Below are positions 48,067-48,887 of a DNA stretch of 63,635 nucleotides, piece after piece (within the stretch, counting starts at the first letter, position 1; the number at the start of each line of letters is the position of its first letter). Location: NCBI GenBank assembly GCA_001797465.1, contig MGPQ01000019.1, positions 219,329 through 282,963 of the forward strand, given 5' to 3'. Origin of the DNA: Deltaproteobacteria bacterium GWB2_55_19. GTDB lineage: Bacteria > Desulfobacterota > GWC2-55-46. A program made the position numbers and the translations under genes. Under the pieces are notes generated by a model. The model saw nothing but the letters and a program-made list of their open reading frames with translations. It was not told the DNA's origin and ran no database searches.

Positions 48067-48153
48067 GGAGAGATGCCCGAGTGGCCGAAGGGGTACGACT
48101 GGAAATCGTATGTACAATAAAATGTACCGAGGGTTCGAATCCCTCTCTCTCCG
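48067..48153 (+). tRNA. tRNA-Ser (GGA anticodon)
   Basis: An 87-nt class II tRNA. Acceptor GGAGAGA/TCTCTCC, anticodon stem TACGA/TCGTA with loop CTGGAAA (anticodon GGA), a long variable arm closed by GTAC/GTAC, and T-arm GAGGG-TTCGAAT-CCCTC. Discriminator G at 48153; CCA is encoded at 48154-48156. It reads UCC and UCU Ser codons. Confidence 0.97.
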
Positions 48154-48361
48154 CCATAAATAAGCAAGAGAGCCGGAAGGGATTCGAAACCGTCTGAACG
48201 CCGAACGTATGTGAGGATGAGGCCGCTGGATGCGGCCGGAAGTGAAGATGGCCGGGCTGGAATGCGAGGCAGGAGGCCGAAGCGTGGAAGCCGAATCCCT
48301 CTCTCTCCGCCATAAATAAGCAAGAGAGCCGGAAGGGATTCGAAACCGTCTGAACGCCGAA
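48136..48361 (+). repeat. tRNA-Ser(GGA)-linked 156-bp repeat
   Basis: The last 18 nt of the tRNA plus its trailer (48136-48205, 70 bp) recur exactly at 48292-48361, giving a 156-bp unit and a partial second one. The trailer contains GGGATTCGAA (48179-48188), the reverse complement of T-arm sequence TTCGAATCCC (48134-48143). The 86-bp interior (ACGTATGTGAGG...AAGC) has a counterpart about 80% similar after the second tRNA-Ser. No convincing coding frame. The layout resembles the E. coli tyrT locus, whose 178-bp repeats carry the tRNA 3' end. Confidence 0.9.
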
Positions 48362-48443
48362 TTTTTCTATTTAAGATAGAATATTGACGAGAGACCCAGG
48401 GGGTTTTGGCCGTTACGGGCCTTGGTTATATAGAAATTTTTAC

Positions 48444-48530
48444 GGAGAGATGACCGAGAGGCTGAAGGTGGCTGACTCGAAATCAGCTGTGCTGGAAACG
48501 GCACCGGGGGTTCAAATCCCTCTCTCTCCG
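48444..48530 (+). tRNA. tRNA-Ser (CGA anticodon)
   Basis: An 87-nt class II tRNA with the same acceptor stem GGAGAGA/TCTCTCC. Anticodon stem GCTGA/TCAGC, loop CTCGAAA (anticodon CGA), long variable arm (GTGC...GCAC), T-arm GGGGG-TTCAAAT-CCCTC with one G-T pair. CCA encoded at 48531-48533. It reads UCG. Confidence 0.97.
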
Positions 48531-48718
48531 CCAGAAACATCATAGGCGCTCGAAGGGATTTGAACCGTCTGAGCGCCGAGCGGATGCGAGGAAGAGGCCG
48601 CAGGGACGCGGCCGGAAGCGAAAGACGGCAGGGCTGGAATGCGAGGCAGGATGCCGAGCGTGGAAGACAAATCCCTCTCTGTGCCAGAAACATCATAGGC
48701 GCTCGTGGGGATTTGAAC
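48513..48718 (+). repeat. tRNA-Ser(CGA)-linked 155-bp repeat
   Basis: CAAATCCCTCTCT...GCGCTCG (48513-48552) recurs at 48668-48705, a 155-bp period; the second copy has lost a few bases of the acceptor stem. The trailer carries GGGATTTGAA (48555-48564), the exact reverse complement of this tRNA's TTCAAATCCC (48511-48520). The interior (CCGTCTGAGCGCCGAGCGGA ... GGGCTGGAATGCGAGGCAGG) is homologous to that after tRNA-Ser(GGA). Confidence 0.88.
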
Positions 48719-48755: not shown

Positions 48756-48887
48756 CTTGCGGGCCCTGTTGATAGCTGGGTCTTGCGCAATGGTACGCTG
48801 TAAACCCCGCCAGGTCCGGAAGGAAGCAACGGTAGCAGTTTTATCCATGTGCCGCAAGGGTGCCTAGCTATCAACAGGACCCGCAAG
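48756..48887 (+). ncRNA. ffs: Signal recognition particle RNA (4.5S type)
   Basis: About 132 nt. Ends pair through TTGATAGCT (48769-48777) and AGCTATCAA, extended outwards by CTTGCGGG and CCCGCAAG. The apical Ffh-binding domain has the conserved CAGGTCCGGAAGGAAGCA (48811-48828) and GTAGCAG. It pairs with Ffh to target membrane proteins. Its position directly upstream of dnaX-ybaB-recR and downstream of tRNA-Ser matches the order known in Firmicutes and others. Exact ends are approximate. Confidence 0.95.

Follow-up and report, generated by a model that had tools for sequence, protein, structure and literature searches.

Two tRNA-Ser genes of the window (by which we mean the whole stretch of 63,635 nucleotides that was analysed) are each followed by a unit of approximately 153–156 bp, whose core is a conserved, covarying structure and whose two ends are matched to the local tRNA and not to other isotypes. 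Units of this kind have been acquired at tRNA genes that have no unit in related genomes, and the tRNA stays intact; units also occur in tandem and can disappear again. We lean, with some reserve, towards the reading that they are small non-autonomous structured insertion elements, whose target is the T-arm found at the end of every tRNA and tmRNA, and we propose to call them RtT-like T-arm insertion elements.

The original prediction described a 70-bp repeat behind tRNA-Ser(GGA), a decayed one behind tRNA-Ser(CGA), and homologous interiors. All three are borne out. Behind tRNA-Ser(GGA), positions 48136–48205 recur at 48292–48361 with 100% identity and a spacing of 156. Behind tRNA-Ser(CGA), 48522–48565 matches 48675–48718 at 91% (44 bp) with a spacing of 153, and the period becomes approximately 153–155 if small indels are allowed, in line with the predicted figure. 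The interiors of the two units share 85% identity by BLAST over query positions 20–160. Two features had been overlooked: an antisense copy of the T-arm in each trailer, and a truncated further unit after each tRNA 3′-end copy. The right end of both repeats continues into a solo arm, and behind tRNA-Ser(GGA) also into a piece of core. All features are listed in Table 1. The SRP RNA gene is a neighbour outside the element and serves as an orthology marker.

Table 1. Positions of the parts of the two tRNA-Ser loci, numbered along the window.
Feature	Position	Strand	Basis and remarks
tRNA-Ser(GGA)	48067–48156	+	target of element 1; ARAGORN, Rfam RF00005
Copied part of tRNA-Ser(GGA), CGAATCCCTCTCTCTCCGCCA, 3′ end from the T-loop	48136–48156	+	direct-repeat search
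Trailer between tRNA-Ser(GGA) and arm, element 1	48157–48177	+	read off the sequence
Arm AGGGATTCGAA, element 1	48178–48188	+	antisense to tRNA-Ser(GGA) T-loop/T-stem TTCGAATCCCT; inverted repeat I5, arm/junction analysis
Structured core, element 1	48189–48291	+	R1 match, covariation, fold z −2.2
Exact copy of tRNA-Ser(GGA) 3′ end, including CCA	48292–48312	+	repeat D2; 0 mismatches over 20 nt
Truncated second unit behind tRNA-Ser(GGA): trailer, solo arm (48334–48344), first part of core	48313–48361	+	repeat D2, inverted repeat I6
tRNA-Ser(CGA)	48444–48533	+	target of element 2; ARAGORN, Rfam
Arm AGGGATTTGAACC, element 2	48554–48566	+	antisense to tRNA-Ser(CGA) T-arm TTCAAATCCCT; inverted repeat I7, 100%
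Structured core, element 2	48567–48667	+	R1 match 48548–48686, 116.5 bits; fold z −2.6
Copy of tRNA-Ser(CGA) 3′ end, CAAATCCCTCTCTGTGCCA, slightly decayed	48668–48686	+	repeats D3, D6
Second trailer behind tRNA-Ser(CGA), with solo arm GGGGATTTGAAC (48707–48718)	48687–48718	+	comparison with G001 (L206)
Bacterial small SRP RNA gene	48774–48872	+	Rfam RF00169, 76.1 bits

Read 5′ to 3′, a unit consists of a trailer, which in some members of the family contains a terminator, an arm antisense to the T-arm, a core of approximately 105 nt, and a copy of the tRNA 3′ end that runs from the T-loop through the CCA or beyond. Folded as single sequences, both units reach about −60 kcal/mol (z scores in Table 1), with a long P1 helix, made of arm and copy, that encloses a branched core. 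In element 1, P1 is closed by the tRNA-Ser(GGA) copy and the arm AGGGATTCGAA, which spans the junction where that copy starts, and the core contains five covarying helices and tandem G-A motifs; by eye, these motifs and the purine-rich conserved loops are RNA-like. The arm AGGGATTTGAACC of element 2 was also set against GGTTCAAATCCCT of the tRNA-Ser(CGA) T-arm (inverted repeat I7). Differences between the two arms mirror those between the two tRNA-Ser genes.

None of the findings named beforehand as speaking against the original prediction (a known attachment region or coding gene in the interior, or confinement to this genome) was encountered. Rfam gives only tRNA and SRP RNA in the window region, where weak sX4 and plastid matches, below threshold and lying over the tRNAs, were discarded; no phage or plasmid match to the elements was found; and the elements occur outside this genome too. 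No integrase gene or cargo was found such as an integrase-mediated island bounded by attL and attR would have, and between the repeats lies a structured core of approximately 100 bp. In genomes G014 and G007 (L213 and L220), two short open frames that look HicB/HicA-like by eye lie between tRNA-Ser(GGA) and tRNA-Ser(CGA).

Genomes were searched for the interior beside tRNA genes, and the same unit appeared behind many isotypes in relatives. The trailer-region search matched nearly all of them, and many genomes had several strong copies, part of the weak matches being tRNA ends only. At the loci so collected, the unit stands behind Ser, Tyr, Trp, Pro, Leu, Val, SeC and Arg tRNAs, and in many cases the last 20 nt of the local tRNA are copied without mismatch. 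Because exact 20-nt copies of local tRNA ends are found behind many isotypes in other genomes, the repeats are far beyond chance. From 31 aligned units and their folded alignment we built a covariance model, R1. It recognises element 1 at 48172–48312 with 142.7 bits, and yields 143 distinct elements over the collected loci and 12 copies in this genome; the targets comprise at least 15 tRNA isotypes and also tmRNA. Within the class, R1 matched 37 of 63 genomes. Among sampled genomes, it matched 26 of 395 from the phylum and 18 of 198 from Spirochaetota, to which Treponema belongs; all three counts are lower bounds due to fast filters. The element is thus spread over at least two phyla, Deltaproteobacteria and Spirochaetota (Treponema), its carriers being uncultured Deltaproteobacteria, Treponema zioleckii, T. 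sp. JC4 and rumen Treponema MAGs.

For at least 117 of the 142 longer R1 matches, a tRNA gene lies upstream on the same strand; among the others, some are behind tmRNA and some at contig ends. Units follow tmRNA at L055 of this genome, L079 of a named Deltaproteobacterium MAG and L165 of a Treponema genome, so that the common denominator of the targets is a tRNA-type T-arm with its 3′ end. The statement that no such element was known for tRNA-Ser beside the SRP RNA gene stands, whereas specificity to tRNA-Ser or to SRP does not. Copy number is uneven even inside genera: 2 in G003 and 10 in G002 (genus g1), 8 or more in G009 and 0 in G024 (genus g6). At two loci (L092, L042) a unit ends in a tRNA-Pro copy and no tRNA is recognisable upstream; these units are possibly separated from their tRNA, or chimeric. 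Dispersed repeats of the form GTCATTCTGAG...GAAGAATCTC at L040 and L215 carry a GAGCG-n-AGCGA hairpin motif, as do the cores described here and RtT (see below), and the three are possibly one superfamily.

The match of arm and copy to the target was analysed in 85 elements that have a tRNA a short way upstream. The longest match of the copy averaged 18.2 consecutive nt to the element's own tRNA versus 5.8 to other isotypes, and was higher for the own tRNA in all 85. Complementarity of the arm was 10.5 to the own tRNA versus 6.1 to other isotypes (higher in 84 of 85). The interval covered by the arm is fixed relative to the start of the copy, from about −2/−4 to about +7/+10, and shifts along with it in Treponema Thr, Ala, Gly and Glu elements, whose copy begins further upstream. 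Evidence that the arm spans the junction comes mainly from these few shifted elements and from E. coli RtT, since in Deltaproteobacteria the left-hand match is mostly the invariant TTC of the T-loop. The arm forms a more stable duplex with the intact tRNA than with the downstream copy (means of −20.0 and −15.4 kcal/mol), the tRNA being preferred in 84 of 85. At the tRNA-Pro/tRNA-Arg locus of G009 (L040), a unit behind tRNA-Arg has an Arg-type arm and a copy of the 3′ end of the upstream tRNA-Pro; this chimera may show which end is borne by the element.

At the tRNA-Trp-secE locus, approximately two dozen genomes of many genera have no arm, core or copy, and only G015 and G022, of one genus, are occupied; there, the flank of the empty relatives, GCTTTTTC, resumes past the copied CCA. 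Units therefore really insert, and the part of the original prediction that proposed a mini-element inserting at tRNA ends is upheld by these empty and occupied sites. At the Ser-Ser-SRP locus, sister genome G001 has, behind tRNA-Ser(CGA), the window locus minus exactly one unit, with the solo arm kept: sequence nearly identical to 48687–48718 follows the tRNA directly. From this we conclude that units are also lost between direct repeats. Behind tRNA-Ser(GGA), G001 keeps a longer second unit than the window. Tandem units with a truncated last copy are found in the window, L047 and L143. In a Treponema locus behind tRNA-Met (L280), the tRNA end and the whole terminator are duplicated while arm and core are single, an arrangement that has the appearance of a target-site duplication. 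Intrinsic-terminator-like hairpins between tRNA and element are present in Treponema and at several Pro, Leu and tmRNA loci.

Cores cluster by target isotype more than expected by chance, with 36 label changes versus 57.8 after shuffling, although isotype switches are still many. This suggests spread that is largely isotype-bound or vertical, rather than free hopping. At four loci (L074, L104, L106, L112) a second core is nested in a first one near a GCCGAGC motif, and a GGCGnCGnAGnCGC hairpin stands at the left end of the nested core. Insertion of elements into elements thus seems to occur.

Covariation was counted on the core helices alone, leaving out the tRNA-derived P1. In the alignment, 95.8% of cells were paired, and 16 of 24 pairs showed two-sided change. 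Two-sided cells numbered 135, versus 37.5 in shuffles (0 of 500 as high), and sliding the partners by 1–3 columns lowered pairing to 32–40%. The structured element of the original prediction is in this way confirmed by strong covariation. G.U pairs made up 1.9% of element pairs versus 6.7% in the tRNA stems of the same loci (Fisher p ~8×10−13), which is unexpected under purely RNA-level selection. On the sense strand, G.T exceeded A.C modestly in A2 (35 versus 15, p=0.007), and not significantly in A3 (33 versus 22). Given the rare G.U pairs and this modest G.T excess, it may be in the DNA, in addition to or instead of the RNA, that the structure matters or is maintained.

The comparison with the E. 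coli tyrT locus, made in the original prediction, was the right lead. The tandem repeats of tyrT/tyrV, which carry the annotation RttR and match Rfam RF00391 (RtT), are built alike. Both RtT and the window units lie directly behind tRNA genes, RtT behind Tyr in K-12 and behind Pro in E. coli CKJ_1000_3.1, and both end in the local tRNA 3′-end copy including CCA. Both have a 5′ arm antisense to the same tRNA that forms the closing helix with the copy; an inner CGAGCG..AGCGAG hairpin and a second hairpin, followed by a CCGAAGGGCGAG-like strand; and tandem units of which the last is truncated. Of 24 nt in the tyrT arm comparison, 20 are antisense to tRNA-Tyr, whereas the best of 60 shuffles reached 15. 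In CKJ_1000_3.1, arm, copy and duplicated terminator are all of Pro type, and the arm match is weakly above shuffles (15 versus a best of 14). At NZ_CM176478.1, 2128256–2128500 (L296), where E. coli RtT lies behind tRNA-Pro, the duplicated terminator is of intrinsic type and is doubled along with the tRNA end.

The window units differ from RtT by an extra GGCC-closed domain in the core, and the window-type elements by a far broader range, with many more isotypes, tmRNA, and other phyla. RF00391 gave no sequence or structure match in the window region, even at E values up to 1, and R1 scored only 13 bits on the RtT repeats. As these bits come mostly from tRNA-derived ends, core homology by covariance model was dropped, and the window units are filed as a variant of the RtT kind outside RF00391. 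E. coli RtT is thus the known example of this kind of element, in the sense of a shared anatomy rather than of established common descent. Behind tRNA-Ser(GGA) in G010 (L215), a different core lies between the tRNA end and its exact copy; it is RtT-like by eye, yet unscored by RF00391, and was not accepted as RtT.

If the units are T-arm insertion elements, the arm would act as a guide, base-pairing with the intact tRNA gene or its transcript across the insertion point in the T-loop. An enzyme would open the T-loop junction and copy arm and core into it, and the target sequence to the right would be duplicated. Such target-primed copying would give the observed order of target end, trailer, arm, core and target end. 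Read-through transcripts of some units would be trimmed like a tRNA into RNAs ending in CCA, by analogy with E. coli RttR. In its full form, this reading, which we advance tentatively and consider doubtful, makes the units RNA-guided mobile elements. Their antisense arm of 10–21 nt would base-pair with a tRNA or tmRNA over the precise point of insertion and direct the copying there, with target-site duplication, and the core might be a new ribozyme or serve an enzyme as its docking site. Of candidate enzymes, RVT_1 (PF00078) was undetected in element-rich genomes G000, G009, G013 and G015, and Y1_Tnp (PF01797) in these four and G017. DEDD_Tnp_IS110 (PF01548) was undetected in G000, G002 and G009 and present in G013, G015 and G017. 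In the complete, element-rich genome G009, none of these three candidates for the mobilising enzyme was detected, and for these reasons the mechanism is given as a candidate scheme. The grouping of cores by isotype and the scarcity of G.U pairs also weigh against the insertion-element reading; the patchy distribution over genomes is in its favour.

Several known systems share parts of this anatomy. Integrative elements that target tRNA genes use the T-loop junction, duplicate the tRNA 3′ end and leave a functional tRNA. Our units do likewise, but in approximately 155 bp they have neither integrase nor cargo, and an antisense arm with a covarying, RNA-like core is no feature of att sites. The internal guide sequence of group I introns is complementary to the sequence on either side of the junction, pairing with the right side through its 5′ part and with the left side through its 3′ part, and the arm resembles it in being antisense to both sides of the insertion junction. 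However, no intron is matched in Rfam, the core is far too small, and the tRNA is intact upstream, so that splicing is unneeded. REP/BIME-type repeats, associated with Y1 (RAYT) transposases, are likewise short, palindromic, non-coding and present several times per genome, whereas our units have target-matched ends and, at the loci examined, lie behind tRNA-type ends only.

The main rival to an insertion element is a host-functional, processed trailer RNA of the RttR type, kept for a stable small RNA ending in CCA, with mobility incidental. Arm and copy would then be selected to form a P1 that mimics the acceptor/T-stem for tRNA-processing enzymes. The annotated RttR RNA, with its start 8 nt past tyrV and its end at the copied CCA, fits this, as do the conserved structure and the slight sense-strand excess of G.T over A.C, found in A2 only. 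Northern blots have shown RtT RNAs in Actinobacillus; such RNAs are reported to be released from tRNA transcripts, and in E. coli they are connected with amino-acid limitation (PMC4986893). A Thioalkalivibrio RtT was upregulated at low temperature (PMC8092127). Against it, presence is patchy even within a genus and units stand behind almost any tRNA, the terminator-like hairpins at many loci mean that co-transcription would need read-through, and the arm is a better fit to the tRNA than to the copy, though P1 requires the copy alone. Terminators, patchiness and the preference of the arm for intact tRNA argue against a trailer-RNA role as the full account, and we hold it to be a possible explanation, on the doubtful side.

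Alternatively, the units could act at the DNA level: a recombinase would recognise a single-stranded or cruciform hairpin, or shared tRNA ends would recombine with one another, and the RNA would be a by-product. As in integrating islands, the tRNA 3′ end may then be part of the element itself. The scarcity of G.T pairs, with compensatory changes almost all Watson-Crick, is in its favour, as are the position of the copy start, close to the dyad in the T-loop palindrome, the precise gain and loss that direct repeats make possible, and the isotype-bound lineages. But the right end has no integrase-type core site, and the paired partner of the copy is the arm approximately 100 nt away rather than an adjacent sequence. 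The failure to detect Y1 transposase or IS110 recombinase in G000 and G009, and the RNA-like look of the conserved loops and G-A motifs, also count against a DNA-level element, which we judge unlikely. Plain tandem duplication, in which slippage or unequal crossing-over doubles the tRNA 3′ end with its trailer and no element is involved, would account for tandem units with truncated last copies, but is rejected as extremely improbable, because homologous, covarying cores lie behind unrelated tRNAs in distant phyla and empty tRNA-Trp sites have neither core nor arm.

The E. coli tyrT repeats are a decades-old oddity of one operon. They now become one case of a widespread kind, that of structured units behind almost any T-arm-bearing RNA gene, with ends matched to it, and the old tyrT puzzle gains a testable origin, with many natural replicates and their empty sites. 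The outcome suggests either that an RNA-guided mobile element has so far gone unrecognised or that these units form a new class of tRNA-trailer RNAs. If the latter is true, this class has been missed by current RNA libraries in Deltaproteobacteria and spirochaetes; if the RNA-guided reading is true, the E. coli tyrT repeats would be its first-seen relic.
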